Part shown: positions 2,321 to 25,755 of the stretch, in pieces
Layout of the letters: every line of letters begins with the position of its first letter
Position numbering within the stretch: position 1 is the stretch's first letter
Source: a virus
Strand: one strand, 5' to 3'
DNA length: 27,801 bases
Virus record (IMG/VR): IMGVR_UViG_3300044648_000037
Coordinates: 1 to 27,801 of that record
Translations under genes and position numbers: made by a program
The notes under the pieces: model-generated
What the model saw: the letters and a program-made list of their open reading frames with translations, nothing else
The model's database searches: none
What the model was told of the DNA's origin: nothing

Positions 2321-2736
2321 GCTGTCACATCCTGGTAAAAATGATGATTGTGAATCGCCTTCACGAATTTCACACTCGGTGCCTCTGCCCATGCCGGCGT
2401 CTTCTTAACACCCTTCGGCGCAAAGTACAGTACAGCACCGTTCGTCACATCGTCGTACACTGATTCCTTCCAGGCACGAACACATTCCCTGACGACTGGG
2501 TTGTCGTCATCGAGCATCATGCTTCGCTCTCGAAGCGTGTCCTTGGGATCGGTGTTCCAGCCTGAGAACTGATAGTCCTTCAGCACTGTGCCGGCAACTG
2601 TGCCGTCACTCTGATACTTGCGTTTCATTCTGTTGCGGATCACGGAGGCAACTGCCAGCTTACCCTCGTAGGGTTCGCCGGCAGCTTCTTGCCAGATCGT
2701 GGCCGCAGCCAGAGCGTCATCTGAGATGAGCCTCAT
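2317..2736 (-). CDS. SleB-like cell wall hydrolase (endolysin)
   Basis: This encodes 139 aa. The sequence begins with the Hydrolase_2/SleB signature: AAATIWQEAAGEP, with Glu17 as the likely catalytic acid, then KLAVASVIRNRMKRK. The family's C-terminal pattern GAVLYFAPKG...PAWAE...NHHFYQ is present. Enzymes of this family cleave peptidoglycan glycan strands as lytic transglycosylases or amidases. The length fits a single catalytic domain with no cell-wall-binding domain and no signal peptide, so export would need the downstream holin. The start ATG overlaps the preceding stop as ATGA (2733-2736). It is the core of the lysis cassette at the end of the late operon. Confidence 0.88.
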   Translation of the reverse strand: MRLISDDALAAATIWQEAAGEPYEGKLAVASVIRNRMKRKYQSDGTVAGTVLKDYQFSGWNTDPKDTLRERSMMLDDDNPVVRECVRAWKESVYDDVTNGAVLYFAPKGVKKTPAWAEAPSVKFVKAIHNHHFYQDVTA

Positions 2737-7300: not shown

Positions 7301-10255
7301 GCCAGTCTCTGCTGCCAGCATGCGAACGTGTTCTTCAATGAAGGAGTAGGCATCGTCAGGAAGCACGTCAGCGTAGCCGAACATGCTGCCCATGTGCCGG
7401 TCGATCACCACGGCATTGGGATCACCCTTGATCGCGGCGTAGAAGTTAGAGACCTTGCGGCCGGCCAGCTCTTCGCCTCGTAACGTGCGAGCCATGTTGT
7501 GGTTCAGGGCATCGTACTTCTCAGCCTTGTCCACACCAGCCGCTCTACTGAGTGCAATGGGATCTCGCTCGCCCAGCTTGTACGCACGGTATGCACCGAA
7601 CGCACGATCCACGTTCATCTTTACGTCAGCCTGCGGCGAGTACAGCGCAATGAATCGCGCCATGAGATCGGCATCTTCGCCGAACAGTCTCGTCAGCTCA
7701 GGCCATGCCGTGGAATACCAGTCCGTGATCTGCCGGCCATGACTGTCGTTCATCATCTCGATGAGCTTCTTGGTGTTCGGTAACTCACCTTCAGCAGCCT
7801 TGAGATGTTTCGTGTACGCCTTGACGGATTCATTGAACAGGTCACGGTAGTCATCGAGGCCGACCTTGCCACGAGCCGTCTCAGGCAAGCGCTCTTCGAT
7901 CTGCCGGACCCAGGAACCAAACAGGTCTGCGGATGCACCTTCAACCAGGCCGAGCTTGTCGCGCTGTGCCTTGAGGTTGAACAGCTTCTGTTTCGGGAAC
8001 TTGCCGCCACTCGCCAGCATCGAGCTGGCTTGGCCGAGCACTTCCACTCGAAGCGCATCCTTCGCGTCATCACCTTCAATGGAATCGACGTGAGACTTGT
8101 AGGCCCCGCGCTCGCCTTCCATCCCGAACGTGGTGTCCGGTTCGATGTGACCTTTGTAATCATGCACGGCACGGAACTTCAGATTCTGTTCCGGCGTGAA
8201 GACAGGATGTTCGTTGAAGTCTTTGCTGACCTTCAGCGTCCCAGTCTTCTTGAAGTCATCAATCATCTCTTTCGATGAGGCATACGGCTGACCATCAACA
8301 TACTCAACCTTGATGCCGGCCTCGTCGAATTGTTTCTCGACTTGCGCGATGAGCTTTTCCCATCCACCGCGAACGGCAGGATCTGCCGATTGATCTTCAG
8401 CGCTCAGGTATGCCAGCGCATCCTGAAGGTCTTCATGTGTGAGGTCATCTTGTGCATTGAACTTAAAGTTCCTGCCGAGACGAGTTGAGAATTGTTTCTT
8501 GTCACCCTTCTTAAGTGCGACATTGTTCTCGACTTCCATACCAGGCCAGTTCGACTTGGCGCGAGCGAGAGCATGTCCTTCGTTCAGTCCCTTGACGGCA
8601 TCGATATGATGTGATCCGTCAGCTCCGCGAACCTTAACATCGACTGAGCTGCCGTACTGTTCTGCCTCGTAGCCTTTGCCTCCAGGCTTAACGAAGTCCT
8701 TGTAACCATCGTTGATCCTCGGCTTTGCCGTGGACATCTCAGGCTGAGCCAGGATCGCGGCACCCATCTGCACCAAGTCCTTGCGAACCTGGGGATCACT
8801 GATGTTGCCTTCGGCCGCAGCCGCTGCCACACGCTCGGGCATTGCAGCCGGATAAACCACGCGAGGTGCGCCCATCGGCACACCGGTCTCAGGACCATAG
8901 AACGCTCGCGGCCTGTCAATCGTGCGAGACACCGGCTCATCACCGAGCGTCTGCAAGGACGGCATGTCATCTTGATAGCGGATCGCTGCACGGTAGCCGG
9001 CATCTTTCAATGCTTGCTCGTAACCGGTCTCGGGCAGGTTCAGCGGATTGTCTTTGAAATCGTAAACGGCTGTTCCAGGGAGCTTCACCTCATTGCGGTA
9101 TCGAGGCAGATCCTTGTACGACAGACCTTTCGGTACATCGCCAAGGAAGTGTTCACCAGCCGGCACAGACAGGAAGCGCTGAGCGCTCATGTTCACGCCA
9201 GTGACGTGATCCTGATAGGCACCGCTGACGGTCTTGTCCCAGTCAATGGACATACTGAACGGCACTTCGCCTGACTCGGATTCGATGATCGAGTAGCCAG
9301 GCTGGAGCTTGGCTTCTTCGCCATAGATCGACGGACCCTTGCGAGGATTCAGCCGGCCATCCACATAGAGGATGCCGTCATTGGTCGCAATCGATTCCTG
9401 GCCGGATGCCTTGGCCCATCGGAGCGCTGACGTGAGGAGCTGCTTGTCGTTCGCTTTCGGCGAGACGATCATCACCGAGTTCTCAGGCAGCTCGCTGTAG
9501 TAGCCACGGACCTTGTATGATTCGTACTGGCCGGCAAGCCTGCTGAGCGAGCCTGACTCGAATCCAGACTGTGTGGCCATCTTCGGATTGTCTTCGGTCA
9601 TCAGCACGAACGTGCGACCGGCACCGACCGGACCATCGACCAGCTTCTTGAGATCCTGTTCGGTCTTGATCGTGGCAACGGGTGCAGTACGTTCCAGTAC
9701 CTTACCGCCCTTCAGGGCTTTCGCTGCCTTGCCAGCCTTGGCCGGCGCAGATCCAGGGATGAGGTTCGTGGGATCGGTTCCCACCATCATCCCAAGCGCA
9801 CCGACTCCAGACATGACTTGAGCTGCCCCAGCGAATGGAGCATCAGGGTTGATCTCTCCAGGCATCGGGAATTTCTGATCGTGCATGAACCGTTCAGTGT
9901 CGAACGTGGACACGTCACCGACTTGCCGGCCTGTCGCCTTCTGTACAGCGGCACGACCAGGCAAGCTCGTGACCTCGGCAGTACGGTTCAGCTCATCGAG
10001 CGGGTTATCGCTCGGGCGTAACCATTCCCTGCCGGCGTATGGATCGGCCTTGTCGGTCTCTGCCATTGAGCCAGAGAGCTTGCCCCTGCGGTTCAGTTCC
10101 TTCTCGGCATCGGCACCGGACATACCTACAGTCTTGAGCTTACGACCTTGTTCGTCAGTGCCGGCAGGCTGCGAGCCGATCTCACGCTGCACCTCTCTGA
10201 GTGCCTCGGTATAATCTGACTGCGCCCTTCGTTGCTCGAAGATATTCTGATCCAT
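4391..10255 (-). CDS. Giant internal virion / ejection protein, multidomain (1954 aa)
   Basis: It is the largest gene here, third of three virion-core genes, starting TAATG at 10255 with GGAAGGAA upstream. By position it equals T7 gp16, the protein ejected with DNA, but I see no lysozyme motif. Parts seen: residues about 215-300 (FVLMTEDNP...GQESI...YVDG) resemble a DUF3293-type segment; about 360-450 resembles pieces found in MuF/polyvalent phage proteins (DAGYRAAIRY); about 695-760 has FRAVHDYKGH (His698, Asp699, His703) followed by GE and GQ motifs; about 880-990 has GRK...IDRH with Lys934 and Asp952, the spacing seen in endonuclease III-type glycosylases; Gly/Ala-rich segments near 1050 and 1620 could insert in membranes; about 1340-1750 (SNPISAAVNVGSG, FVRTPVNIFKYNLEG) resembles the C-terminal domain of large polyvalent phage proteins. 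The overall role is well supported; the individual domains are inference. Confidence 0.8.
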   Translation of the reverse strand: MDQNIFEQRRAQSDYTEALREVQREIGSQPAGTDEQGRKLKTVGMSGADAEKELNRRGKLSGSMAETDKADPYAGREWLRPSDNPLDELNRTAEVTSLPGRAAVQKATGRQVGDVSTFDTERFMHDQKFPMPGEINPDAPFAGAAQVMSGVGALGMMVGTDPTNLIPGSAPAKAGKAAKALKGGKVLERTAPVATIKTEQDLKKLVDGPVGAGRTFVLMTEDNPKMATQSGFESGSLSRLAGQYESYKVRGYYSELPENSVMIVSPKANDKQLLTSALRWAKASGQESIATNDGILYVDGRLNPRKGPSIYGEEAKLQPGYSIIESESGEVPFSMSIDWDKTVSGAYQDHVTGVNMSAQRFLSVPAGEHFLGDVPKGLSYKDLPRYRNEVKLPGTAVYDFKDNPLNLPETGYEQALKDAGYRAAIRYQDDMPSLQTLGDEPVSRTIDRPRAFYGPETGVPMGAPRVVYPAAMPERVAAAAAEGNISDPQVRKDLVQMGAAILAQPEMSTAKPRINDGYKDFVKPGGKGYEAEQYGSSVDVKVRGADGSHHIDAVKGLNEGHALARAKSNWPGMEVENNVALKKGDKKQFSTRLGRNFKFNAQDDLTHEDLQDALAYLSAEDQSADPAVRGGWEKLIAQVEKQFDEAGIKVEYVDGQPYASSKEMIDDFKKTGTLKVSKDFNEHPVFTPEQNLKFRAVHDYKGHIEPDTTFGMEGERGAYKSHVDSIEGDDAKDALRVEVLGQASSMLASGGKFPKQKLFNLKAQRDKLGLVEGASADLFGSWVRQIEERLPETARGKVGLDDYRDLFNESVKAYTKHLKAAEGELPNTKKLIEMMNDSHGRQITDWYSTAWPELTRLFGEDADLMARFIALYSPQADVKMNVDRAFGAYRAYKLGERDPIALSRAAGVDKAEKYDALNHNMARTLRGEELAGRKVSNFYAAIKGDPNAVVIDRHMGSMFGYADVLPDDAYSFIEEHVRMLAAETGMAPADAQATLWGSWKALKGQGGELKNLDEFLREAAQANPDLIGAEAILDEAGRTRLSAAWLLTKIVAGGAAGGTFGDNPEEQIKNALIGAGLGAVASKPIWQKVGNAIRENRPAKWFKPAGQSPAPTVPKPLSPQEVMAQADAEAQQKARLDALRNKPKTVTVGEKTYELDMQALNTPEQLKQAVDEMAKVYREQIDNGGLTLGSRGTIPNALARRLGEHLNLTQEDVLNRVRGSVGPVEHVFAYADVLDAAKGRAMQSYELYNAGNKSFEKELLGDIDRYVKVGYQLDGLLEELGRGLQAAGQPDVKALTQGFRSFSGPFEIMQKHGSLNGDSVAALVKEVGLERTAAIGKAVEKAGLWDMVAEVTYGFVLSNPISAAVNVGSGAVLNPLISVMSRGLAEIAGSGAVVEGEAAAMLFGYYHGAQRLMRAVADTYKKGGAIELMRGMKSVKPLGKEADKSGLNHSITGANVSELMPKPFQFDPQGLIGRLVDGLGSAIRVGPALMELGDHLSYAVNLDMAQAARAFREGHKLGKTGAELEAFVNKEMLNPTREIRQEAERFAMHEIFKAPIEGFSGKIVEGLGHPALRPFITFVRTPVNIFKYNLEGMPLLNLTQKAVRDDIAAGGARRDLAVAKMVVGSTVLGTAAILAMNDRLTGAGPQDPKMRALWSIDHQPYSVKVPGLDKWVSYRRFDPIAAWMGTAADAAMFMKFDKDDLTGGEMAMAGVLGLMRNFTDKTYTRDTFEFLDQLTVRPGETASSSLEALDRYLEKKATAYIPWSSLTRAARNAVDPNMREAFDLSEKFMNGIPGLSNRLPMKLDFFGDPITNPRYNAFLPFPLKDNTGDDVIDEMIEMRAAVGMPSKQLDGQDLTTQEYHDLVEARGKHVKAWNGKDLREALIDLFNTNDYRKKDTTNAARKLMIEKLVEGYNMAAVDYMADGGRNERFLKFRQAQKQAEAISGQKLNLNFGVQ

Positions 10256-12069
10256 TATTCCTTCCCGCGCTTCTTGAACTCGCGCACAGGCTTGTCGTCC
10301 TTACTCTCCTCAAGTGGCTTGCCATACGGATCGAGACCCTGCATTGCTCGCCACGCCTTCAGCTTCTCAAACTCCCTTGTGAAACCCTTCCAGTCGAGCT
10401 TGCCTTCGTTGTGCGCTCGATTCAGACTGTCGGCATCAGGGAACATCGGCAGCTCGCCAATGGCCTTGGCCTTGAACCCGAGATTCTCACGAGCGGTCTT
10501 GACGATGTTCTGCATCAACTGCTTGGCCTCGTCTTGCGAGGGATGTGCCTTGCCGTCTTCGTACAGCTTCCGGTACTCGTCTCGATACGCGACTTCAGCC
10601 TGCGAGAGGATCTGCAAGGCTGACGCATTCGTGAACGGACTGAGCTTGATGATGCCGAGCTGTTCCTGAATCTGTCCTTCATAGAACTTGTAGTTGGGAT
10701 GGTTCGAGAAGTGCTTCGGATCTTTCGATGCCGACTGCTCGAACTCGTACTGTGTCCGCTTCGCCGTGTACAGTTCCTGCCGCTGCTTGTAATTGAGGTT
10801 GTTCATGCCCAGGATCTGATCGGCCGAGAGTGCATCGGAATTGTGGAAGAGTTTCATCTTCCAGTAATTCATGCTGCTCTCATCACCCTGACCGCCAGTG
10901 TCACGAGCGTTCGCAATCTTCTCGCGGATATGTTCGTACCGTGTCGGCTCTAGCTTCTTGAGCTGACCGTCCATCTCCAGCGAGACGGTTCCACCAATCA
11001 TTGTCGGCTTGCTGAAGTAGGAGTCCCAGAAATTGCGTTCGATGTTATCCTGCTCCAGCTTGAGTTCGCGCTCTTCGCTCTTGCGCTTCTGCTCCATGTT
11101 TGCCAGAACTATCTTGTCGTTCTCATCGAGCTGCGACTGGAGCTTCGTGAAGTCTTCCGGCGTAAAGAACGGTGCCATGTCCTTCAGGTCAGTCCGCATG
11201 ATGCGGCCGGCCACGGCTTGAGGGAACGCGAACCGCATGCGAGCGGCCGACTGTTCCTTGAAGTCCTTGCCTCGGTGCTCGCCGTACTCCTTCAGGAAGG
11301 ACTGGATCTTCGATCCATCGACCGGAGCAAGCAGTGCCTTGTCATCGGGATTGTCTGAGTAGATCGCACGGAACATTCCCTCGGGATTCTTTGCGGCCTG
11401 CCGCTCGAACCACTGAGTCGATGCCTTCTCCTGGAATTTCAGGAGACGTTCTTCCGACTTACCTTCCGAGAGCGTTCCACCGTGAACCGCCTTTTGCAGT
11501 TCGAGTCCGTACTGTCCAACGGTGTCGAGGAGTGAGCCGGCATCGGGAGCATCAACAGCCTTCTGGAGCTGGAGCGCTTCTGCCTCGCCGAGTCGCTTCT
11601 CACTGCCCTGCACGATCATCTCGCTGGACATCTTGCCCAGCTCAGGGATCATCGTGTCGATATGTGCGAGACCTTCAGCCTTGAATCGTGCGCGAGCGAT
11701 CTGCGACATCTTGTCGAACTCTTCCGAGTCCAACCAGTCCGTCAGCTCGCCAACCACTTCAGGCTGGAACTTTGACATGCCCAGTCCAACCGAATCGTCT
11801 TGAGCATACGCCGTGCGCTTGTTCTCCACGACCTGTTGGGCAATCGATTTGAATCGCGTGATACTCTTACTGACTTCCAGGTCTTCTTCGGCTTTTATCC
11901 GGCGATTCGCGTGACCTGGCTGTTCGACCATGATGTTGCCTGCATTGACCGTTGCACGGCCAAGATCCTGCACGGCCTCACCGACTCGGGTGAAGGATTG
12001 GAAGTCTACAGTGCCAGTTGCCGTTCTGCTCGGCATCTGCTCTGAGTTGAGAAATCGTTGCAGCTTCAT
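10255..12069 (-). CDS. Internal virion protein (T7 gp15-like position)
   Basis: This encodes 604 aa and is almost entirely helical and charged, with long Glu/Lys/Gln/Ala runs and no Cys. The N-terminus QMPSRTATGTVDFQSFTRVG resembles the start of podovirus internal core proteins. The ATG overlaps the preceding gene as ATGA (12066-12069) and the stop overlaps the giant gene as TAATG, so the three core proteins are translationally coupled. By order it corresponds to the middle ejection protein, which forms the core stack above the portal and part of the trans-envelope channel. The C-terminus is strongly basic (VREFKKRGKE). No enzymatic motif is visible. Confidence 0.75.
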   Translation of the reverse strand: MKLQRFLNSEQMPSRTATGTVDFQSFTRVGEAVQDLGRATVNAGNIMVEQPGHANRRIKAEEDLEVSKSITRFKSIAQQVVENKRTAYAQDDSVGLGMSKFQPEVVGELTDWLDSEEFDKMSQIARARFKAEGLAHIDTMIPELGKMSSEMIVQGSEKRLGEAEALQLQKAVDAPDAGSLLDTVGQYGLELQKAVHGGTLSEGKSEERLLKFQEKASTQWFERQAAKNPEGMFRAIYSDNPDDKALLAPVDGSKIQSFLKEYGEHRGKDFKEQSAARMRFAFPQAVAGRIMRTDLKDMAPFFTPEDFTKLQSQLDENDKIVLANMEQKRKSEERELKLEQDNIERNFWDSYFSKPTMIGGTVSLEMDGQLKKLEPTRYEHIREKIANARDTGGQGDESSMNYWKMKLFHNSDALSADQILGMNNLNYKQRQELYTAKRTQYEFEQSASKDPKHFSNHPNYKFYEGQIQEQLGIIKLSPFTNASALQILSQAEVAYRDEYRKLYEDGKAHPSQDEAKQLMQNIVKTARENLGFKAKAIGELPMFPDADSLNRAHNEGKLDWKGFTREFEKLKAWRAMQGLDPYGKPLEESKDDKPVREFKKRGKE

Positions 12070-12524
12070 TCAAATCCCTTCCCGTAGTTGGCATAGGCAT
12101 ACGCACCAGCCTGGAGCATAGATGCCCCTGCCCTGACGTAGCCGGCCGATTGCGCCTGCCTACCGGACATGCGGTAGAGTCGTCCTCTATTCCTATGGCC
12201 ATAGGCTTCCACGCTTGCGGTGTATCGTGCCTTGTTCGCACCGAGAGCGGCCTGGTACACGGCTTCTTCCTGCACAAGCAGTGGAGAGCCGGTGTCGGCG
12301 ACAAGACCGGATGCCGATGCCCGAGCACGAGTCGTGGAGCGAGATTCATCGCCTGCGCGAATGATCTGCTTCGCCCGTTCCTCGCCGGCAACCTTCGCAA
12401 ACTCGGCGTTGTCTTCTTCGATGCGAGCGTTGAACTCACCAGCAGCTTTCGCTTCGTTACCTGCGGCGATGGACCCGTACGCACCGATAAGTCCACCACC
12501 AAGAGCCATTACTGATACGGGCAT
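12066..12524 (-). CDS. Internal virion protein (T7 gp14-like position)
   Basis: This encodes 152 aa. The Gly/Ala-rich hydrophobic N-terminus (MALGGGLIGAYGSIAAG) is followed by Ala/Glu/Arg helices (NARIEEDNAEFAKVAGEE), then the motif ASASGLVADTGSPLLV and an Ala/Gly/Tyr-rich end. The pattern R-x-R-A-x-x-S-G-L-x-x-x-x-G-S-P is typical of the small podovirus internal protein that is ejected first and forms the outer-membrane end of the channel. The ATG directly follows the stop of the tail tubular B-like gene, with GAGG 7 bases upstream. A second ATG six codons in could also start the protein. Confidence 0.75.
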   Translation of the reverse strand: MPVSVMALGGGLIGAYGSIAAGNEAKAAGEFNARIEEDNAEFAKVAGEERAKQIIRAGDESRSTTRARASASGLVADTGSPLLVQEEAVYQAALGANKARYTASVEAYGHRNRGRLYRMSGRQAQSAGYVRAGASMLQAGAYAYANYGKGFE

Positions 12525-14462
12525 TTAGTCCTCTACTTCGAGGTGTCCAAAGACACCGAGCACGTTGAACGGAAGTGGAAGCGTTTGCTCAATCGTGATC
12601 TCGCCTTCGCGGTCCCATCCAGTATTGAGCGCATATTCATCACCGGTCACGGCCTCAAGCGATTCGTCCATCTCATCATCTGACGAGCGAGACTCGACTT
12701 GATCGCCATTGATCGTGACACCTTTTGTATTGAGTAGCCTGACACCGACATCGACCCATCGCTTCTTCTTGCCCTGGATCGAACCGTCCTGTGTCGGCAC
12801 CTCGGGACGAAGCGTGACGATGCGAGGCGTGAACGAGAGACCGACATCGATGACCTCTGCTGGTCCATCGGGAGTCAGCTCAACTTCACCGCCATCAACG
12901 GTCTGACTGTTATAGACGGCACCGTCGCCGACGATCACGACTTCCTTGCCTTCAAGATGATCGAGTCCTGTCACAGTCGAGACGGCCACTCCGTCATACG
13001 AGATCGCACAGTCCATGTTCAGATCGGGATCGAAGAACTCAATGTACCGTACGGTACTGCCGTCAACGGTACGATTCACCAATGCCCAGATCTGATCGCC
13101 ATCACCATGAGGGATACAGGCGAATGACTCGAACTCACCCTGCGTGTCGTGCTGCGCCCAGCCGAGCACGTTCTGCTCAGCCACGTATGTCATCGATGCG
13201 AACTTGCCATCACTTCTCACGCCGGCCAGGATCGAGTCAGGTTCCTGCTGATAGCACCAATCTACGATGCCGTCGCCAGTGATGTGCTCGGACAGGATCG
13301 TGAGATCCGGCGAGCTGTATGAATCCTTGTTGAAGTTATACTCCAGCGAACGAACCTTCTTGCCGGACCTCGTGAGGTACACGGTGGAATCGCCGACCTT
13401 GATCGGCTGCACACCCTTCGATCCGTAATTCGTCTGCACCATCGCACGAGCGTTCGACGGAGTGAGTGGGGCATCCGACCCACCCTGTAATCTGAATTGA
13501 GCCTTTGAGGTGCCAAGCGTGATGCCACGATCTTCCGTCATTGAATGGAACGGGTTGACGTAGCTCGATGCAACCACATACGTGACGGCATCATCATCGG
13601 CCGTTCCTGGAGTCATGTCCTCGAATGAACCGTTAACCGATCCCCAAACTGTTTGCTGCTCGCTCGGCGTACTGGCCCACCACAATCGCTCTTCACTGAA
13701 CCCGACGCAGGACGGATAGCCTCGATACGCTGAGAAGGAACCTTCTCGCCAGAACGCTGTCGCGGTCGTTGCGCCAAGAGCCTTCTGCACTGTGATGTTC
13801 ACGAGAGATGAGCTGGTGAACCCAGTGATGAGAACGTATCCCCAATCGACTCCAGAGTTATGGGACAGTCTCCAATACGATCCAACGTGATTGATGTTGA
13901 ACGGTGTATGTCCTGTCGCTGTGAGCGTCCCCGTTGCACCGAGCGCATTGACTGACGGCGTGAGCGTCTTAGTCGTGTCCGTGTTCATCCGCATGTACGG
14001 ACCATCGACAAAGCTGATGGACTGAATCGACCAACTGGTGTGCGATGTCCTGGTGAGCTTTCTTGGCGCATACGATTGATGCGCCAGGAACATCACGTCA
14101 GCGGACTGCGAGTACTTGACATCGAAGAGATGAGCTTCGAGGTAAGGCGATGCCAGCTCGACAGGGGTTCCGCTGATGATCTGCCCTTCATCCATGAAGA
14201 ACCGGAAGTACTGATCTCCCATCTCCAGGATGTATGCTTGCGTGGTCGAGAACTCGAACGGGATCAGCCGAGCGACTTTATCGGCATGCTTCGCTGCCGC
14301 AACATACCGAGTGCCAGGACGACCGTAGACTCCACCTTGAGGCTGGATGAAACAGTTCCGCAGCTCCTTGCATGCGCTCCGGTACTTTTCAAGATCGGTT
14401 CGCGCATGGAGCTTCGGCGAGAACTCTCCAGACACGAAGCTGTTCATCATCACTTGCGGCAT
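12525..14462 (-). CDS. Tail tubular protein B-like / stabilisation protein (nozzle)
   Basis: This encodes 645 aa. The N-terminus has the hallmark of this podovirus family: NSFVSGEFSPKLHARTDLEKY, then ELRNCFIQPQGGVYGRPGTRYVAAA and RLIPFEFSTTQAYILEMGDQYFRF. The middle has an APRKLTR segment and WWASTPSEQQTVWGS; the rest is beta-rich. Proteins of this family form the nozzle of the short tail below the adaptor. It lies 3 bases after the adaptor gene with GGAG 8 bases upstream of the ATG, and directly before the internal virion genes, the same order as T7 genes 11, 12 and 14. There are no oddities in length or frame. Confidence 0.85.
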   Translation of the reverse strand: MPQVMMNSFVSGEFSPKLHARTDLEKYRSACKELRNCFIQPQGGVYGRPGTRYVAAAKHADKVARLIPFEFSTTQAYILEMGDQYFRFFMDEGQIISGTPVELASPYLEAHLFDVKYSQSADVMFLAHQSYAPRKLTRTSHTSWSIQSISFVDGPYMRMNTDTTKTLTPSVNALGATGTLTATGHTPFNINHVGSYWRLSHNSGVDWGYVLITGFTSSSLVNITVQKALGATTATAFWREGSFSAYRGYPSCVGFSEERLWWASTPSEQQTVWGSVNGSFEDMTPGTADDDAVTYVVASSYVNPFHSMTEDRGITLGTSKAQFRLQGGSDAPLTPSNARAMVQTNYGSKGVQPIKVGDSTVYLTRSGKKVRSLEYNFNKDSYSSPDLTILSEHITGDGIVDWCYQQEPDSILAGVRSDGKFASMTYVAEQNVLGWAQHDTQGEFESFACIPHGDGDQIWALVNRTVDGSTVRYIEFFDPDLNMDCAISYDGVAVSTVTGLDHLEGKEVVIVGDGAVYNSQTVDGGEVELTPDGPAEVIDVGLSFTPRIVTLRPEVPTQDGSIQGKKKRWVDVGVRLLNTKGVTINGDQVESRSSDDEMDESLEAVTGDEYALNTGWDREGEITIEQTLPLPFNVLGVFGHLEVED

Positions 14463-14465
14463 GCG

Positions 14466-15032
14466 TTATCTCCGACAATCAATGAGCACGGTTGACACGA
14501 GTTCGTCCTGCGTTCCCTCGAAGCTATCGATGCCCTTGGCCTTCTTTAGGCGCATGTCGTAGAGCTTCAGCATCGCGTCCTTGTACGAGACCTTGCCGGC
14601 AATGCCGAGCGAGAGCTTGTACGCGAGAAACGCCTCGACGCATTCCGTGAGCTGGCTGTCCCACTTCGCTGGGTTGTTGAGGAAGTAGACGTACTTCATG
14701 TAGACGGACTCTTCGTCCGTCAGGATCTTGTTATCTTCCTGCGACCACTTATACCCATCCTCATCAATGTCCAGCTCGCTAGTCCTGATCCAGTCCGATG
14801 GAATCTCGAACTGATACTCGAACCCGAAAGCCGGCGCAGCTTCAAGGCGAGAGAGCTGCTGCCGCTTGGTCGCACATCGCCAGTTGTGCTCTCGCAGCAC
14901 AGTCTTGACGGCATCATCGAAAAACAGATTGCAGAGCCGTGCTCGCTCGGTCGAGTCCGAGAGAGAAGTGATCGACTTCTCTCCCAGCTCAGACAAAGCT
15001 CCATTGCACACGGCTACTTTACTACTTGCCAT
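14466..15032 (-). CDS. Tail tubular protein A-like adaptor
   Basis: This encodes 188 aa. It begins VAVCNGALSELGEKSITSL, followed by LCNLFFDDAVKTVLREHNW, and then FEYQFEIPSDWIRTSELDID. The pattern 'N.AL..lG...I.sl......A..c...yd.v...lL....W..A' is shared by T7 gp11-type adaptors that connect portal to nozzle. A helical C-terminus follows (AFLAYKLSLGIAG...MRLKKAKGID). The ATG has AAAGG upstream. In T7 the equivalent gene directly follows the capsid gene and its terminator; here three genes for exported proteins are inserted between. Confidence 0.85.
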   Translation of the reverse strand: MASSKVAVCNGALSELGEKSITSLSDSTERARLCNLFFDDAVKTVLREHNWRCATKRQQLSRLEAAPAFGFEYQFEIPSDWIRTSELDIDEDGYKWSQEDNKILTDEESVYMKYVYFLNNPAKWDSQLTECVEAFLAYKLSLGIAGKVSYKDAMLKLYDMRLKKAKGIDSFEGTQDELVSTVLIDCRR

Positions 15033-15044
15033 GTTGACCTTTCT

Positions 15045-18000
15045 TTATGTCCCGCTCCCGTTTGATCTAACAATATTCACCCTAAACCCACCAGAAGGGG
15101 TCAGGCTGTCAATATCGCTACCGTTTTGATTCTTCGGCACAAGACAGAAGTAATCAGTAACAGGAGTCGCAGAACCAATCTGCATGAGATACATGACAAC
15201 AGTTGAGCTGCCGTTAGTAAACCCAGTCACAGGGACAGCGGCAGACGTTCTCACGATACCGCCAAGGATGAAATCTTTCACACCTGTCAAGACAGCGCCA
15301 AGCGGGGACGAGACTATGTTCGTTCCGCTTCGCTCCTGTCCAAGGAATCGAATTTGATGTGAACCAAATGCGTCAGAAAGCTGGAGCAGATCGCCTGAGC
15401 ATTGGTACTTATAGTGCATCCGAAAGGCGGCAGCTTCTATACCGGCTCCATCGCCGTCATACTGGAATGCAACGCCCAGGTAGGAATTGGGACGCACATC
15501 AACGGCAGTATTGAGAGCGGCGAGATATTCCACTGCACCGCCCTTCAGTTGCGGGTTAAATGCACGAGCTGCTGCAAGTGCATATGTTCCCACGGAAGGT
15601 GCCGGTGGTGGGTTGTAGGCTGCTGCTAGATCGGCAATTTCCTGATCGGTCAACGCTTCATTGAAGTACTTATACTCATCAACCGTTACTCCACCATAAT
15701 TGACATCGAACGTCCCTTGACCTATTCTGAAATCGGTACTGAACGTGAATGACGTATATGACTTAGCAGACTGCGCTCCCGTACCCTTGACTCCGTTCAC
15801 GAATAGTCGAGCCAAGTTCGCCGTGTCAACGACCCCTGCCGGATCGTTTCTTAAGCAGACGTAGGATTTTGAGGCGCTAATCGCAAAGTCCCCGCCAGTC
15901 GTGAACGGGTTACCTTGAATGCCAATCGCATAGAATCCACCGATCTGACCGATGTACCAGCGCTGACTAGTTCCGTTAGATGGCCCGATAGCAATCTTCT
16001 GCGCCGCAGTGATGTCGTGCCATTGCAGACCCAAGCAATGCGTCATGGCCTGAGTAGTTGGATTCACTCCAGAGCCAAAGCCGGTGTCCACATATTCATT
16101 GACACCGCTATCGAAAGACACTCCACGAGGACTCACCCAGGATGGAGAGCCGCTAAAGCTCCCTGGATCGTCACCGCCTTCAAGGTCCGTGACTGTCGTT
16201 CCGGCTCCATCACTGAAGCTGTAGTGAATCACCAATCCGGTGTCCGGTGGTGTCGTGCCGGCACCAGTGCAGGTTTCATTCACGGCCTGGTTACTAAATG
16301 ACAGGAGCGGCTGATTGATCGTGCCGCCGATCTTGGCAGAATCCGTAATGGTTCCGGTAGCAGAATTGAAACTGATCGTGTATTGCTGAGTTGCTGCGTT
16401 GCAGAAACCTGTCCCTCCGATCCCAGTCACGAACACGCGAAGAATACTGTCTGATCCTGGACTTAATATCACGCTGGAGACTACTGGAGTCCCGCAGTCG
16501 GTCCCAGTGCAACCAACAGTCCACCCAAGTTGATTCACAACCTGTAGTGGAGTGTGCAGGTTCATCGTAAACGGAACATCGATGAACACCGTGCCGTTCG
16601 CCGTATCATTGTCCATCGTGGGTTCATTTGCGATGGAGAATACTTCGGCCGGCCCTTGATCTGGATTGCCGTTCCCCACAATCGTGAGAGCTGCTGACGG
16701 ACTTGCCGTACCAGCGTTAATCGTGGCCGATCCAGCAATCTGAACAGGGTTAGAAGTTGACGCGAAAAAGTCGGTGATCGTACCGCTCGTGCGGTTGTTC
16801 GATTTCGTGGCGGTATTGTTTAGCTCGTTTATTGCCGTCCCGTTATTTAGGAGCACATTGTTGGCAATCACAACACCAGTCAAGCCATTCGTGCCGGCAT
16901 CGGCACCAATTTGAATCCCAGCCGCTGGCGCATTGTTGTAAACGAGATTGTTATAGAATTGTGCATTGTCGGCATTAGGGCCTATTGTGTAAGCACCAGC
17001 ACCCAACCCGCACCCAGTCATGTCAAAATAGTTGTGATGGACCTTTCCATTCGGCCCCTCGAACACAACCCCCCAGCACGAGAGATTGCCGCCAGAACTT
17101 AGGCTCTTTTGCAGGTCGTGAACATAGTTGTATGCAAACGTGGGAGATGGGACATTCATCCCAACAGTCGATGAGGTAAACTGAACGGCTGCGGTCACAT
17201 GGTAAAACTCGGTATGATCCACCACCGCATCTGCCCCGCCGCCATTATATAACCCGTATCCGTTAGACTGAGAACTCCCTCCGTTTTCAGGCGCACACCG
17301 ATTCGTGTCACGGATAACTGAATTGGTGATGTGCAGACCGGAGATATTGGTCGTCCCCGCTTGCATGAATGCAGCCACGCCATGCCTGCAAGCGTTGTAA
17401 ATCTCTACATCGTCAATGAGAATATCAATGCCTTCAGGCTCAATCTCGCCACCACCGGTGTTGGTGCCGCCCGTACCGTTACAGATCAGGTGCCGGATCG
17501 TGATATGATCGCGCCGAGTTGTTGTATTCGCGTCTTGAAACGTGATGCAGTTCGGGACTTGTAGTACCGGCTTCGCCAGTCCTGGCACTCCCTCAATGAT
17601 TGTATGCACGGAAGTCGATGACCCGCTTTTCAGGCCAGTCGAAGGGATATTGCCGTTTGACGCCGTGTTGATCCTCGCATTCGCTCCAGTGTACGTCCCT
17701 GGCTTAATCCACACTCTATCGCCAGCCTCGTCCGCGCATTCCGCTGCACGTTCGACTGTGTAGTAACCTCCCAATGGATCAACGTCTGATGGCGCACATG
17801 CCGCAACATTGCTGCCACCAACACTCGCCCAAAAGATTCCAGGCGCGAGAATAGCCTTGCCGAACGGCCAGATCCCCAAAACAAGCACGAGTGCCGCGAG
17901 GTGTGCGCGAGTTGCAGACAGAATGAACGTGGCGATCCATACGGCTGCAACAGCCCAGAAGTACCGCCCAGTACCTTGCAGTACCGCACCCCACAGCACC

Positions 18001-18047
18001 GCCAGCGCCATGAGAAGACGGAGGACTTCGCCGAGACGCTCCTTCAT
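15045..18047 (-). CDS. Membrane-anchored beta-helix / LamG-like protein (1000 aa)
   Basis: The start is ATG 18047, ATGA-overlapping the preceding gene, with GGAGGA upstream. The first 66 residues contain three hydrophobic stretches (LLMALAVLWGAVLQG, WAVAAVWIATFILSA, LAALVLVLGIWPF), so the protein should be membrane-anchored or exported. Residues about 100-410 read as a right-handed parallel beta-helix with short repeating turns (ITIRHLICNG, GLHITNSVIRD, NAQFYNNLVYNN, GVVIANNVLLNN), as in pectin-lyase-like and tailspike folds. Residues about 600-805 are a LamG/concanavalin-like domain (GLVIHYSFSDG ... VTVDEYKYFNEALTDQEI). The last 190 residues are beta-rich. It could be a surface glycan-binding or glycan-cleaving protein. 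No catalytic residues can be assigned by eye. The membrane anchor is odd for a virion part. Confidence 0.65.
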   Translation of the reverse strand: MKERLGEVLRLLMALAVLWGAVLQGTGRYFWAVAAVWIATFILSATRAHLAALVLVLGIWPFGKAILAPGIFWASVGGSNVAACAPSDVDPLGGYYTVERAAECADEAGDRVWIKPGTYTGANARINTASNGNIPSTGLKSGSSTSVHTIIEGVPGLAKPVLQVPNCITFQDANTTTRRDHITIRHLICNGTGGTNTGGGEIEPEGIDILIDDVEIYNACRHGVAAFMQAGTTNISGLHITNSVIRDTNRCAPENGGSSQSNGYGLYNGGGADAVVDHTEFYHVTAAVQFTSSTVGMNVPSPTFAYNYVHDLQKSLSSGGNLSCWGVVFEGPNGKVHHNYFDMTGCGLGAGAYTIGPNADNAQFYNNLVYNNAPAAGIQIGADAGTNGLTGVVIANNVLLNNGTAINELNNTATKSNNRTSGTITDFFASTSNPVQIAGSATINAGTASPSAALTIVGNGNPDQGPAEVFSIANEPTMDNDTANGTVFIDVPFTMNLHTPLQVVNQLGWTVGCTGTDCGTPVVSSVILSPGSDSILRVFVTGIGGTGFCNAATQQYTISFNSATGTITDSAKIGGTINQPLLSFSNQAVNETCTGAGTTPPDTGLVIHYSFSDGAGTTVTDLEGGDDPGSFSGSPSWVSPRGVSFDSGVNEYVDTGFGSGVNPTTQAMTHCLGLQWHDITAAQKIAIGPSNGTSQRWYIGQIGGFYAIGIQGNPFTTGGDFAISASKSYVCLRNDPAGVVDTANLARLFVNGVKGTGAQSAKSYTSFTFSTDFRIGQGTFDVNYGGVTVDEYKYFNEALTDQEIADLAAAYNPPPAPSVGTYALAAARAFNPQLKGGAVEYLAALNTAVDVRPNSYLGVAFQYDGDGAGIEAAAFRMHYKYQCSGDLLQLSDAFGSHQIRFLGQERSGTNIVSSPLGAVLTGVKDFILGGIVRTSAAVPVTGFTNGSSTVVMYLMQIGSATPVTDYFCLVPKNQNGSDIDSLTPSGGFRVNIVRSNGSGT

Positions 18048-18772
18048 TGATTCCTCCTTCGGATCGCGCCCGTTGCCGTATCAGCAGCCGGAAGGACCGG
18101 AATGGCACGTATGCTGGTAGAGGTCGAACTCGCCCAACTCCAACTCATGGTTTTCGTCCCTGCTCCGCTTTCATACGAGGAATGCACACGCAGGTTGCCG
18201 TTATCCGGTTGACCACTAGCGACAATCTCTGTTTGGTTAGCGCCCTCTGCGGCCACTTCCGTAGACAGCCCTTTCACAATGCCGTCAATGACGACACCAT
18301 TCGCCACGCCCGTCGCATCAGTAGTAATCGAGGTGGTTGAGGAGGTCGTTTGCGCTTCGGTGCCATGCGGACTCACGGGGTCCACTCCAGACCAACAGGA
18401 GGCAATCGCGGCCCATTGATCGGACGCGCTAAGGGTGATCGTCAGCGTATTGCTGCCAGAGGCGGCGCTCACCAAATAAAACTGTTGTTGCGCTCGGCTT
18501 CCCGTGACGAGCTTCGCGCCAATCTGTGATAGAGCCACACCGTTATAGGTGATGCCGGAGACGGCGTTAGTCGCATCATTAACACCAGTGACGACCCGCA
18601 CGTAGCGATTCTCACCCGCACCACAATTCAGCGTGAGGTTGCCGTTCGGGTTCCCTCCAGCGTTGTTCCCGTTGCCGGACACTTCCGCAACGAACGTGAC
18701 CGTTGCTGACAGGGCAGGAGTAGCGACGAGAATGAGTGGCGCAAGGAGAATGCTCAGTAAAAGTTTTTTCAT
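18044..18772 (-). CDS. Exported beta-sandwich protein with Sec signal peptide (242 aa)
   Basis: The N-terminus is a textbook Sec signal: MKK, then LLLSILLAPLILVATPALSA, with cleavage expected around residue 22-23. The mature part is Gly/Asn/Ser/Thr-rich with regular beta strands (YVRVVTGVNDATN, GITYNGVALSQIGAKLV, NTLTITLSASDQW) and a CWSGVDPVSP motif. The strand pattern ending in SGVDxxxP is a common beta-sandwich in secreted bacterial and phage surface proteins. Only two Cys remain after cleavage. The ATG follows directly after the 415-aa gene, with GGAGAG upstream. Periplasmic or surface location is inferred from the signal; function is unknown. Confidence 0.65.
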   Translation of the reverse strand: MKKLLLSILLAPLILVATPALSATVTFVAEVSGNGNNAGGNPNGNLTLNCGAGENRYVRVVTGVNDATNAVSGITYNGVALSQIGAKLVTGSRAQQQFYLVSAASGSNTLTITLSASDQWAAIASCWSGVDPVSPHGTEAQTTSSTTSITTDATGVANGVVIDGIVKGLSTEVAAEGANQTEIVASGQPDNGNLRVHSSYESGAGTKTMSWSWASSTSTSIRAIPVLPAADTATGAIRRRNQ

Positions 18773-20020
18773 TTAGTTCGCTCTCCAGACACGACCGATC
18801 TTTTGCAGGAACGCATCGCCGGCAGCATCATCAGTGACGGCACCTCCATTCGCATCACGAGAGATACGAACGTAGACACGATCACCAGCTACGCAGCTCG
18901 TGCATGTCACGCCGGTAATCGTTGCGAGATTTTCCTGTAAGGTTGTTCCTAGCGCAGCATCAGAAACGCAGTTTCCAGCGGCTTGTGCCGGATACGCAGG
19001 ATCGCTCGTTGCTCCAATCGGCACACGGACCAACTGAGCGCACCAGCCAGTTGAGCCAGTCGTCGCGGCCTGCTTGTAGCGAAACATGATGTCGATACCA
19101 AGGGAGGGGACGAATCCGGTAGGGATAATCCAGCTCAGCTCGAACGATTCATCCGTCGCGGCATCAAAGGCAGCATGAGCCTTTTGAGTATTTGAGCCAG
19201 TGTCGCAAAGCGGAGCTGGAGAGTTGGCAGTTGGGACATCATAGATCAGCGATGGAGTGGCGTTGCTACAGGCGGCAACGTCGAACCAATCCTCTATACG
19301 ACGAATAATTGTAGTAACACCGGTAGCCTCGTCATAGTCGTGATCTATATTGCCACTACTATCCTTGAACCCTGCCTTCTTGCCTGCTCCAATTTTCGTG
19401 TATCGATCACAGGCATCTTCTACGCCGCCGCAGTAGACAGCGTACTTCGGCCCTTCGGTAGGATGTACGTACTGACGAATGCCGTCGCCAGAGTCGTCGT
19501 GAACATCCAACCCGCTTCCAAATGCATCAGCCCCGTCATAGCTGCACCCGCGACCGCAGACGGATTGAAGCGTGTCAGATTCAACCACTGCACCGCCGCC
19601 CCCCCTTCGAGAGACGGCAGTGGAAGCGTTCGCCTTAACAGTGACGGTCCCACTTGTCCAGGAAGTCACATCGGCGATGAAAGTTTTGTTTCCGTTGGTA
19701 GGACAGAAATACAGGCCAGATGCAGCAGATCCACTTGCTGACGTGACTGCCGTGTACGCAGTGTCATCCGACTTTGTGCAGGTAATCTCGTCATAGACAA
19801 CGCCATCAAGAGAAGCCTTGAAGGTAACTTCTGCCGTGTCCGAGATCGTGACGCGAACAGCAATGGTGCTGAACGGATCGACATTGAGAACTGTTCCGTC
19901 ACCAGCAGCCCCAACCGCATCTTGCAGCGTGGTCGTGCCGGTCGATGCAGCATGAGACTTGTCCCATCCACCACCGATCAATGCAGCGGCCAGAAGGAGA
20001 GCGCTTAAGAATTTCTTCAT
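18773..20020 (-). CDS. Exported Cys-rich protein with Sec signal peptide (415 aa)
   Basis: It starts MKKFLSALLLAAALIGGGW and the signal is likely cleaved after SHA at residue 24. The mature protein begins with a beta-rich domain (TIAVRVTISDTAEVTFKASL, about 50-130) and then has CGRGCSYDGADAFGSG and a run of Cys residues in pairs (about 14 in all), which suggests disulphides formed in the periplasm. The C-terminus ends in VYVRISRD and IGRVWRAN. I recognise no family. The ribosome site AAGGGA is 8 bases before ATG 20020. It is the first gene after the terminator that closes the capsid module, so its expression depends on read-through or an unseen promoter. Confidence 0.65.
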   Translation of the reverse strand: MKKFLSALLLAAALIGGGWDKSHAASTGTTTLQDAVGAAGDGTVLNVDPFSTIAVRVTISDTAEVTFKASLDGVVYDEITCTKSDDTAYTAVTSASGSAASGLYFCPTNGNKTFIADVTSWTSGTVTVKANASTAVSRRGGGGAVVESDTLQSVCGRGCSYDGADAFGSGLDVHDDSGDGIRQYVHPTEGPKYAVYCGGVEDACDRYTKIGAGKKAGFKDSSGNIDHDYDEATGVTTIIRRIEDWFDVAACSNATPSLIYDVPTANSPAPLCDTGSNTQKAHAAFDAATDESFELSWIIPTGFVPSLGIDIMFRYKQAATTGSTGWCAQLVRVPIGATSDPAYPAQAAGNCVSDAALGTTLQENLATITGVTCTSCVAGDRVYVRISRDANGGAVTDDAAGDAFLQKIGRVWRAN

Positions 20021-20035: not shown

Positions 20036-20076
20036 AAATGAAAAATGGGGAGAACCGAGTTCTCGATCCTCCCCAT
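20036..20076 (-). terminator. Intrinsic terminator at the end of the capsid module
   Basis: On the - strand ATGGGGAG pairs with CTCCCCAT (20045-20052 / 20069-20076). The interior continues pairing to give a stem of about 14 bp with a GAAC loop, and TTTTTCATTT follows immediately. It lies 8 bases after the decoration gene and before the first exported-protein gene. This is the same place as T-phi after gene 10 in T7, which lowers but does not stop transcription of the tail genes. Confidence 0.85.
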
Positions 20077-20083
20077 CAATCAG

Positions 20084-20518
20084 TTACTCTCCAGCGGAGA
20101 TGTACTCGATGTACCCGAGAATGTTCTTGTCAGCAGCGTAGTTCGCACCACCAGCCGTGAGGATGATGGTCTCTTCCTGCGTAAGAACATCGCCGAATGC
20201 TTCAGCTTCGACGTTCGCCCATGCCTCCGAACCGGCAGCAGACACGTCTTCAGACGCCATGTAGCGGTTCGTGTCGCCAGCAATGCCGATGATCGCTGTC
20301 GCCGACGCACCCATTGCGCCATAGACGATGAATCCACCGACGATGCGAGCGTTCACAGGAACCTTGCACAGCTCAACCGTGTCACCATCGCTGACCGGAG
20401 TGTCCGTGGTGTTCAGGCTGAAGTACGCCCGTTTCACCTTGCCCTTGGTGTTGTGGGAGTTCGGCACCGGAGGAACAGCCACGTCATTCGCTCTCTGATC
20501 TGAATAAGTAGTTGCCAT
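20084..20518 (-). CDS. Putative capsid decoration / minor head protein (144 aa)
   Basis: The product is beta-rich: KRAYFSLNTTDTP, then VELCKVPVNARIVGGFIVYG, then ATAIIGIAGDTNRYM and ETIILTAGGANYA. It is a pattern I associate with small phage proteins encoded directly after the major capsid gene that are thought to decorate or stabilise the head. It has no signal peptide and one Cys. The ATG 20518 has only a weak purine-rich ribosome site, and a 74-base gap with a hairpin separates it from the capsid gene. A terminator follows, so capsid and decoration proteins form the end of a highly expressed unit. The structural role is inferred from position and fold pattern. Confidence 0.65.
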   Translation of the reverse strand: MATTYSDQRANDVAVPPVPNSHNTKGKVKRAYFSLNTTDTPVSDGDTVELCKVPVNARIVGGFIVYGAMGASATAIIGIAGDTNRYMASEDVSAAGSEAWANVEAEAFGDVLTQEETIILTAGGANYAADKNILGYIEYISAGE

Positions 20519-20592: not shown

Positions 20593-21477
20593 TTACGACA
20601 CCAAACACTTGATCTCGATGACCTTCTCTTCTTCCATGCGAACCGCACCGAACGCCCATCGAGCATAGCCGTACCAGTTGAACGACTTGTCCGACCGTTC
20701 ACTGATGCGAGTCGTGAAGTCCATGCCGACAGTGTGCAGGATCGCACTCTTGCACCACACCGGAATCCGGCGATGGCCTGAGCCGTCGAGCAGCAAGCGC
20801 TGTGACGGTACGAACGTGAAGCCCATGAACTTGCTGATCTGACCATCGACCAACGGCTTGATCGCGTTGTAGTCGCTGGATGCAACCTGTGTTTCAGAAA
20901 GCAGGTTGTCCACTTCTTCAGCGGAGACCGAGATGTAGACTTCCTCGCGCTCGAAGTCCACTTCAAACGCAGTCAGGAGCTTCCGCGCCCGACGCAGTTT
21001 GGCGACCGTCAAGCTGACGTTGGAACCACCGAGGTTGACCGGAACCACATAGCTCGCGCTCGTGGGATAGGTCGTGGCAGTTGTTCCAGCCTTGCCGGTG
21101 TAGGCCGTGCCGAACATTGAGGCGATGATGATGTCATCGCGGTCACGGTTCGCAGCCGCACGGAAGTTCTGGATGTAGTCTGACGTAGGATCGATGGATG
21201 TCTGCATCTCATCGAAGCTATCGAAGAAGTCACCGAGGTGGTACTTGCTCAGTGTGACCTTCCGCTTGTAGTGCGGAGTGTTCATCACGGGCGAGTCAGC
21301 AAAGCGCACGTTGACTTCTTCCGAGTCAATCTTCCCGATCTGATCGAAGTACTCTTCCTCGCTGTGCTGATTTTCCTTTCGGACGCACATCGAGAACTTG
21401 GAGTCCTCTTGCTGGAGAAGACGATAGATCGAAGAATTGAACCCTTTTTGATATGCGGTAACTATTTGATCGGACAT
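20593..21477 (-). CDS. Major capsid protein
   Basis: This encodes 294 aa. It begins DQIVTAYQKGFNSSIYRLLQ and continues with FDQIGKIDSEEV, TPHYKRKVTLSKYHLGDFFD and DPTSDYIQNFRAAANRDRDD. The segment LTVAKLRRARKLLTAFEV plus VYISVSAEEVDNLL is the usual capsid helix and the preceding conserved strand. The C-terminus has the paired strands VGMDFTTRISERSDKSFNWYGYARWAFG. This is the pattern of the podovirus HK97-fold 'phage capsid protein' family. It sits between scaffold and decoration genes, with a 165-base leader. The ribosome site before ATG 21477 is AGAGAG. Length is normal for this short family and no maturation protease gene is nearby. Confidence 0.85.
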   Translation of the reverse strand: MSDQIVTAYQKGFNSSIYRLLQQEDSKFSMCVRKENQHSEEEYFDQIGKIDSEEVNVRFADSPVMNTPHYKRKVTLSKYHLGDFFDSFDEMQTSIDPTSDYIQNFRAAANRDRDDIIIASMFGTAYTGKAGTTATTYPTSASYVVPVNLGGSNVSLTVAKLRRARKLLTAFEVDFEREEVYISVSAEEVDNLLSETQVASSDYNAIKPLVDGQISKFMGFTFVPSQRLLLDGSGHRRIPVWCKSAILHTVGMDFTTRISERSDKSFNWYGYARWAFGAVRMEEEKVIEIKCLVS

Positions 21478-24994: not shown

Positions 24995-25309
24995 TTACCC
25001 GAGCAAGCTCTTGCCGGACAGGGATGCCTTCGCAATCGGCGCGGATGCCAACAGTCCTTGCGGCCCTGTCGCAATCGTGCTCTCTCGTCCAGACCGTTGA
25101 CGCTTGTTCAGCTTGTCGATGTACTCTTGCTGCGCCTTACCTTCGATAGCAGCCTGCTCATCCTTGAGCGCTTGCTTCTCGGCATCGGCCTGGTTCTGCA
25201 TCTTGTGCCGCTCGTGCATGGCATCGTTCTGCTGCTTCAAGCCATACGCACCGGAGGCCACGGTTGCAGCCAGGGCCATTGCCATCATTCCTGTGGTCGT
25301 GATCGCCAT
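24995..25309 (-). CDS. Small membrane/helical protein with KSLLG tail (104 aa)
   Basis: The hydrophobic N-terminus (MMAMALAATVASGAYGL) is followed by a long charged coil rich in Gln/Glu/Lys/Ala (about 25-70) and a C-terminus ending LASAPIAKASLSGKSLLG. The layout resembles small podovirus internal proteins (membrane-prone N-terminus, helical middle). The closing 'A-x-K-x-L-L-G' ending appears in similar small phage proteins as I know them. The start overlaps the acetyltransferase stop as TAATG. It may be a minor virion protein carried in the capsid. Confidence 0.65.
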   Translation of the reverse strand: MAITTTGMMAMALAATVASGAYGLKQQNDAMHERHKMQNQADAEKQALKDEQAAIEGKAQQEYIDKLNKRQRSGRESTIATGPQGLLASAPIAKASLSGKSLLG

Positions 25310-25755
25310 TACAGTTCCTTCGTGAAGTGAGTCTCGGATCGTTCATAGTTGCGGCGAGTGAAGAACTTGAACAGCGAATCGTGGTGCGGACCCTGAGCGC
25401 AGCCGACTCGAATCTGATCGGCCTTGATTTCTTCGGCCCACTTCTCGAACTCGATGAAGAGCTTCAAGCCAAGCCGAGTGTTCCGGTAGGGTTCACTGAC
25501 GTACCAAAAACATTCCTGCGCCAGGACTCTCGTGGTGTACAAATCGAATGCACGGAATCCACTGATTGCGCCGACGATGCTGCCGTTCTCTTGTGCGGAG
25601 ATAATCACTCCACCGGCCTGCCCGAGCATCAGCGTCCAGACTTCAATGAAGCGCTCGACACTGAACGATCCAGGCATATTGTTTTCAGCAAAGAAGTCTT
25701 TACCGAACTGGGCCAGCTCCTTCAGATCACCGAGGCCAGCTCTGATGATTTCCAT
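25309..25755 (-). CDS. GNAT-family acetyltransferase
   Basis: This encodes 148 aa with the GNAT order of strands: an N-terminal IIRAGLGDLKELAQF helix, strand GGVIISAQENGSIVGAISG, then motif A with FWYVSEPYRNTRLGLKLFIE (Arg91-x-x-Arg-Leu-Gly96, the acetyl-CoA pyrophosphate loop), and the last strand with FFTRRNYERSETHFTKEL. Small GNAT genes next to terminase and portal are common in podoviruses; their substrate is unknown and may be a host or virion protein. Both ends overlap neighbours as TAATG, so it is firmly part of the packaging operon. Confidence 0.8.
   Translation of the reverse strand: MEIIRAGLGDLKELAQFGKDFFAENNMPGSFSVERFIEVWTLMLGQAGGVIISAQENGSIVGAISGFRAFDLYTTRVLAQECFWYVSEPYRNTRLGLKLFIEFEKWAEEIKADQIRVGCAQGPHHDSLFKFFTRRNYERSETHFTKEL

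Follow-up and report, generated by a model that had tools for sequence, protein, structure and literature searches.

The window analysed here comprises positions 1-27,801 of the IMG/VR record IMGVR_UViG_3300044648_000037, and 21 of its genes were examined. Three co-oriented, coupled ORFs (20020-15045), encoding proteins of 415, 242 and 1000 aa (E415, E242 and E1000), lie on the minus strand between the end of the head module and the gene for the head-tail adaptor (Table 1). The window belongs to an HTVC010P-type podovirus, as its capsid, portal, tail tubular A and B and internal virion proteins are related to those of this group and are encoded in the same order. The capsid protein is 35-41% identical to those of the best-matching phage records and 34-41% identical to those of pelagiphages and Manatee Spring podoviruses. 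Relatives of the capsid protein were also found in genome assemblies of Dongia, Ensifer and Pelagibacteraceae and in other, mostly proteobacterial records, which makes a Gram-negative host likely. In the isolate Dongia mobilis (L160), an HTVC010P-type capsid locus is located well within a 615-kb bacterial contig, and this suggests the existence of an integrated prophage within the group.

The coupled starts described in the earlier note are present: the TAA of E415 abuts the ATG of E242, and E242 and E1000 overlap in ATGA. A Shine-Dalgarno-like sequence precedes each of the three starts. However, tight gene spacing is a general feature of this operon, and E1000 is almost equally close to the tail adaptor gene, which starts 12 bases after its stop codon. 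The coupling thus does not imply that the three products act together, as the earlier note had proposed.

Table 1. Features of the trio and its flanks in the window.
Feature	Position	Strand	Basis
Major capsid protein (Phage_capsid_2), left flank	20593..21477	-	PF19821 E 5e-76, phrog_3437 E 6e-68
Head decoration-like protein, 144 aa, final gene of head module	20084..20518	-	phrog_486 virion structural protein E 3e-6
Terminator-like hairpin, 15 pairs and T run, closing the head module	20044..20077	-	fold; kept in L157
E415, 415 aa, Sec signal peptide	18773..20020	-	ORF, signal scan; missing at the empty site of L157
E415 signal peptide, residues 1-24, ending SHA before A	19949..20020	-	rule-based scan
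E415 XepA C-terminal-like domain, residues about 31-132	19625..19930	-	NF047953
E242, 242 aa, Sec signal peptide	18044..18772	-	ORF, signal scan; phrog_2106 E 2e-3
E242 signal peptide, residues 1-22 or 1-23	18704..18772	-	rule-based scan
E1000, 1000 aa, N-terminal membrane spans and large soluble part	15045..18047	-	ORF, hydrophobicity
E1000 hydrophobic spans, residues 5-68	17844..18035	-	hydrophobicity
E1000 LamG-like stretch, residues 664-805	15633..16058	-	PF13385 E 2.4e-4
Tail tubular protein A (head-tail adaptor), right flank	14466..15032	-	phrog_394 E 3e-48; L157 58% identical

An insertion that separates the head and tail modules

Among the syntenic relatives found, L157 (SYOC01000201.1) is the closest; this contig belongs to a 'Proteobacteria' MAG and is phage-like wherever it can be compared. 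Its proteins are 63% (terminase), 67% (portal), 73% (capsid), 60% (decoration protein, a family present in 166 fetched sequences), 58% (tail tubular A) and 60% (tail tubular B) identical to those of the window. In L157 the interval from capsid to adaptor is 578 b long and contains the decoration gene alone, meaning that the site is empty. The nucleotide alignment of the two sequences extends from the capsid gene to position 20036 of the window and picks up again at 15017, just within the adaptor gene. Inside the aligned region lies the hairpin, with a folding energy of -29.8 kcal/mol in the window and -26.3 kcal/mol in L157. Since the alignment stops after the hairpin and restarts at the adaptor, the trio occupies the gap between a conserved terminator and the adaptor gene.

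The trio also differs in composition. Its codon usage scores -0.03 to 0.02 nats per codon versus 0.10-0.17 for most other window genes, the exceptions outside the trio being a small internal protein (12066-12524; 0.005) and the fibre (0.064), and its GC3 is 0.52-0.60 versus 0.58-0.73 for core genes. In line with the earlier note, which had regarded the block as inserted between the capsid and tail modules, the site is empty in L157, the codon usage of the trio is foreign, and the trio directly follows the head-module hairpin. The simplest reading is a recent horizontal gain, because loss in L157 by itself would leave the codon usage unexplained. Flanking repeats, sought as signs of mobile-element insertion, were not found, and promoter-like and terminator-like matches that could belong to the trio occurred only at chance number. 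The strong hairpin was assigned to the head module because L157, whose site is empty, has it as well.

Genes of the moron type, for example those responsible for lysogenic or lytic conversion, are foreign and located between conserved structural genes after a terminator, and some of them encode exported or membrane proteins; by the strict definition, they have their own promoter and terminator. The trio is similar in that it is foreign, follows a terminator and is missing at the same site in the close relative L157. It differs in that its three coupled genes are large, that the podovirus carrying them is probably lytic, and that no promoter or terminator of their own was found.

Foreign codon usage is also what would be seen if a bacterial operon had been joined into the phage contig during metagenome assembly, with junctions at 20036 and 15040, and the failure to find homologues in the other phages searched (see below) points in the same direction. 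The sole near-identical contig, L117 (IMGVR_UViG_3300042904_000231; 7.6 kb), has a portal identical to that of the window and stops short of the slot between the two modules, so that it neither confirms nor denies the insertion. However, both junctions are intergenic, one at the conserved terminator and the other at the adaptor gene and its ribosome-binding site. The strand and the coupling within the operon are preserved, and relatives hold cargo at the equivalent place. We therefore consider a chimeric assembly very unlikely.

Predicted export and domains

Signal peptides were called by a rule-based n-h-c scan and not by SignalP. In agreement with the Sec signal peptides proposed for E415 and E242 in the earlier note, the scan found n-h-c signals with signal peptidase sites in both proteins. 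Cleavage is predicted between MKKFLSALLLAAALIGGGWDKSHA and AST in E415, and between MKKLLLSILLAPLILVATPALS(A) and TV in E242. Among the 21 window genes only E415, E242 and E1000 were positive, while the chance level was 1.6-2.5% of composition-shuffled versions and the background in relatives 21 of 1288 ORFs (1.6%). A comparable signal score was reached in relatives by 11 of 2283 ORFs of at least 120 aa, several of which encode small lipoproteins or gp14-like internal proteins. In E415 the next Met does not occur before residue 312, and thus the signal is not an artefact of start choice. The N-terminal hydrophobic spans of E1000 were recovered as well, strongly around residues 5-26 and 41-68, with helices predicted at 2-22, 30-42 and 50-57. 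As far as can be judged from sequence only, E415 and E242 look like Sec substrates and E1000 like a membrane-anchored protein. Enrichment in Cys was considered as a sign of periplasmic disulfides and dropped, since high Cys content is not specific for the trio: the signal-less cargo of the relative L118 is equally Cys-rich.

Hydrophobic N-termini might merely mimic signal peptides if the trio encoded internal virion proteins that are ejected, similarly to gp14-like proteins, some of which are indeed false positives of the same rule in relatives (e.g. in L127, L227 and L019). These false positives, however, are without the MKK n-region and clean cleavage site, and genes for internal virion proteins are already present in the window at 4391-12524, which makes such a role of the trio hardly credible.

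The match of E415 to the XepA C-terminal-like domain has an E value of 3.2e-5 for the isolated domain, nearly over the full domain length, and of 2e-4 for the whole protein, and the reversed-sequence control was negative. Only this domain matches: the full-length XepA equivalog is not reached (20.5-23.2 bits versus a cut-off of 400). Filing E415 as XepA was rejected, since the N-terminal disc domain and the two-domain dumbbell are not matched. In E1000, Laminin_G_3 (ConA-like lectin) stays below the Pfam cut-off, with 21.7 bits versus the curated 27.6; a domain of this type is likely but unproven. E242 weakly resembles the C-terminal domain of a minor tail protein family (phrog_2106).

The earlier note had described all three proteins as beta-rich, a claim that could be upheld in part. 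For E415 it agrees with the match to the XepA beta-sandwich and with strands in a single-sequence model whose confidence is low (pLDDT 55-71 at about residues 43-137), while the LamG match of E1000 is sub-threshold. A beta-helix in E1000 was recognized by eye only and was discarded, as Pfam and PDB sequence searches gave no support. Single-sequence structure predictions of the trio proteins were generally poor (mean pLDDT 40.6 and 33.0), and the fold search with predicted structures returned nothing below E 0.001.

The idea that the same trio might be present in other phages was not confirmed: among 50,697 phage records there was no close homologue, and the matches were to unrelated genes at E values of at least about 0.1. 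No trio homologues were found in pattern scans of viral contigs, no E1000 homologue in a scan of genome contigs, and none of the trio in sampled whole genomes. All of these scans, including that of the phage records, cover mainly close relatives, and distant homologues may escape them. Two matches of E242 among 385 genomes (E 1e-4 to 6e-4 per genome) were taken as chance. The searches yielded no homologue by which the trio could be connected with proteins of exclusion, lysis or adhesion, and no tRNA or Rfam element was found.

The nearest known counterparts of E415 are XepA and YomS of the Bacillus prophages PBSX and SPbeta, with the likeness confined to residues about 31-132 of E415 and the C-terminal beta-sandwich of XepA (E 3e-5). 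XepA is made late, is reportedly exported during phage development although it has no Sec signal, and is absent from mature particles (PMC6834076). E415 differs from XepA and YomS by its Sec signal peptide, its unrelated C-terminal part and the absence of the N-terminal disc domain. It is also encoded in a head-tail operon and not in a lysis cassette, and the host of the phage is presumably Gram-negative. XepA is cytotoxic and was proposed to dissipate the proton motive force (PMC6834076). Together with the shared domain and the several membrane spans near the N-terminus of E1000, this would be compatible with accessory lysis, in which the cassette disturbs the inner membrane or the envelope and aids release. 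However, the matching XepA domain by itself is not cytotoxic (PMC6834076), the slot is distant from the endolysin-like gene of the window (2317-2736), and E242 and E1000 contain nothing lysis-like, so that we regard a lysis function as quite unlikely.

Cargo between capsid and adaptor in related phages

Both flanking genes were present in 196 sequences, for which the distance between capsid and adaptor amounts to 554 b at the median and 885 b at the 90th percentile. The window, with 5561 b, has the largest value of these. Other cargo occupies the slot in several relatives. L118, whose portal is 42% identical to that of the window, carries about 11.5 kb encoding Kelch/NHL and BNR propellers and a LamG-like protein; on its contig L156 (845-12356) this is the largest cargo slot seen, and no signal peptide is present on its proteins. 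The slot cargo amounts to 3.1 kb in L006 and 2.5 kb in L076, and a slot protein of L076 matches the virion structural family phrog_10356 (E 3e-13). In L208 (10758-13444) the slot encodes three proteins, namely one of 90 aa, one of 556 aa that is of the right-handed beta-helix type (PF13229, E 1e-3), and a third that is open-ended. No convincing signal peptide was found on the slot cargo of L118, L006, L076 or L208. Judging from these comparisons, the slot is a recurrent cargo site, and its exported-looking cargo singles out the window phage.

Very basic 91-aa proteins were also detected between capsid and adaptor in L061 (3301-3576), L052 (2334-2609) and L167 (7545-7820). That of L061 matches DUF6321 (E 2e-12) and may bind DNA.

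Several resemblances between the trio and slot proteins of relatives appeared plausible by eye and were rejected. The N-terminal domain of E415 compared with slot proteins of about 90 aa, E242 compared with a 401-aa slot protein of L006, and E1000 compared with the beta-helix of L208 were all at shuffle level in hhalign, and BLAST was not significant either.

The most natural reading of the signal-less slot cargo is display on the virion, and this is the main rival to the explanation that we prefer for the trio (see below). The trio proteins would then be variable head or neck decorations binding surface glycans at adsorption, encoded by genes captured from secreted proteins, with the hydrophobic N-termini kept without effect or used as anchors. 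The slot adjoins the decoration gene within the structural operon, the cargo of relatives is of the lectin, propeller or beta-helix type without signal peptides, and the L076 protein belongs to a virion structural family. A precedent exists in the archaeal virus HFTV1, where carbohydrate-binding proteins form turrets added to the head of a tailed virus; their presence in virions was demonstrated (PMC12494034), and no homology to the trio is evident. On the other hand, the three adjacent genes encode two clean signals, each with a lysine n-region and an AXA-type site, and a multi-span anchor, which is difficult to reconcile with assembly in the cytoplasm. Further, the trio shares with the signal-less cargo the position between decoration and adaptor genes and the presence of large proteins, but not the signal peptides, and sequence homology between the two is not significant. 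We regard display on the virion as less likely for the trio than the explanation that we prefer.

Two proteins of Manatee Spring podoviruses likewise have signal-like N-termini: a fibre-like one of about 900 aa, which was annotated as caprin-2 domain protein (L004, MW202898; 28249-31002), and an FN3-type protein of 181 aa (L003, MW202510; 19848-20393). Like the trio, these C1q/fibre-like and FN3-like proteins are large or of beta type and encoded in the structural region. Unlike the trio, they are located after the tail fibre genes, outside of the capsid-adaptor slot, and no sequence similarity to the trio is evident.

A cassette that may act on the cell envelope

The explanation that we prefer, to which we give about an even chance, is that the trio is a horizontally acquired cassette for envelope-acting, probably glycan-binding, non-virion proteins which change the envelope of the dying cell. 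The foreign cassette would occupy a recurrent slot of HTVC010P-type phages, after the head-module terminator and before the tail-adaptor gene, and this position in the structural operon suggests that it is probably transcribed late. E415 and E242 would be exported by Sec to the periplasm of the presumably Gram-negative host, while E1000 would be anchored in the inner membrane with its LamG-containing part of roughly 920 aa outside the cytoplasm. Outside the virion, the three products could then bind envelope glycans or modify them during late infection.

This proposal is in line with the empty site in L157, the foreign codon usage and GC3, signal or membrane N-termini on all three proteins against a background of about 0.5-2%, the interval of 5561 b versus 554 b, the relatives with other cargo, the XepA-type domain and the LamG-like stretch. 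Counted against it are the lack of signal peptides on the slot cargo of relatives, which looks cytoplasmic or virion-bound, the absence of a Sec signal in XepA, and the lack of cytotoxicity of the XepA C-terminal domain alone. It is tempting to speculate that the altered envelope of the dying cell makes release easier or causes arriving particles to fail to inject or to stick. Such a gain in exclusion, release or adhesion is guessed from the lectin-type and XepA-type domains, and we consider it doubtful. The slot could even serve display in two compartments, with glycan binders on the particle in some phages and display proteins on the infected cell in others. This is unlikely, but if true, the phage would alter what sticks to the dying cell, be it neighbouring cells, rival phages or its own progeny.

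The identification of this slot is important for several reasons. Late export of large proteins by lytic phages is seldom considered. The comparisons mark the position between head terminator and tail adaptor as a site where HTVC010P-type phages appear to swap surface-type proteins. Its content is exported-looking, signal-less or empty depending on the phage, which provides a concrete place to seek envelope-acting phage proteins and allows one to ask if phages use late export for exclusion, for release or for adhesion.

A variable site in the structural region was described before in the same HTVC010P-type group: Polarivirus skadi has a hypervariable region (13,646-15,713 in Skadi-1) in the internal virion protein region, which includes a lectin-domain structural protein (PMC10504331). 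It differs from the slot in that it is not between capsid and adaptor and no exported proteins were reported for it (PMC10504331). In the Pelagibacter phage Skadi-3, Skadi3_22 (L005; 9944-10390) carries the annotation of a TonB-dependent receptor domain protein, from which TonB was suggested as receptor (PMC10504331). The protein matches the decoration family phrog_486 (E 8.5e-11) and is encoded at the decoration position, and the annotation looks wrong.

Finally, an acetyltransferase-like gene (25309-25755; phrog_1249, E 2e-17) is located in the window beside the terminase gene, ahead of the portal gene. At the equivalent position, L157 harbours an ORF of 149 aa.
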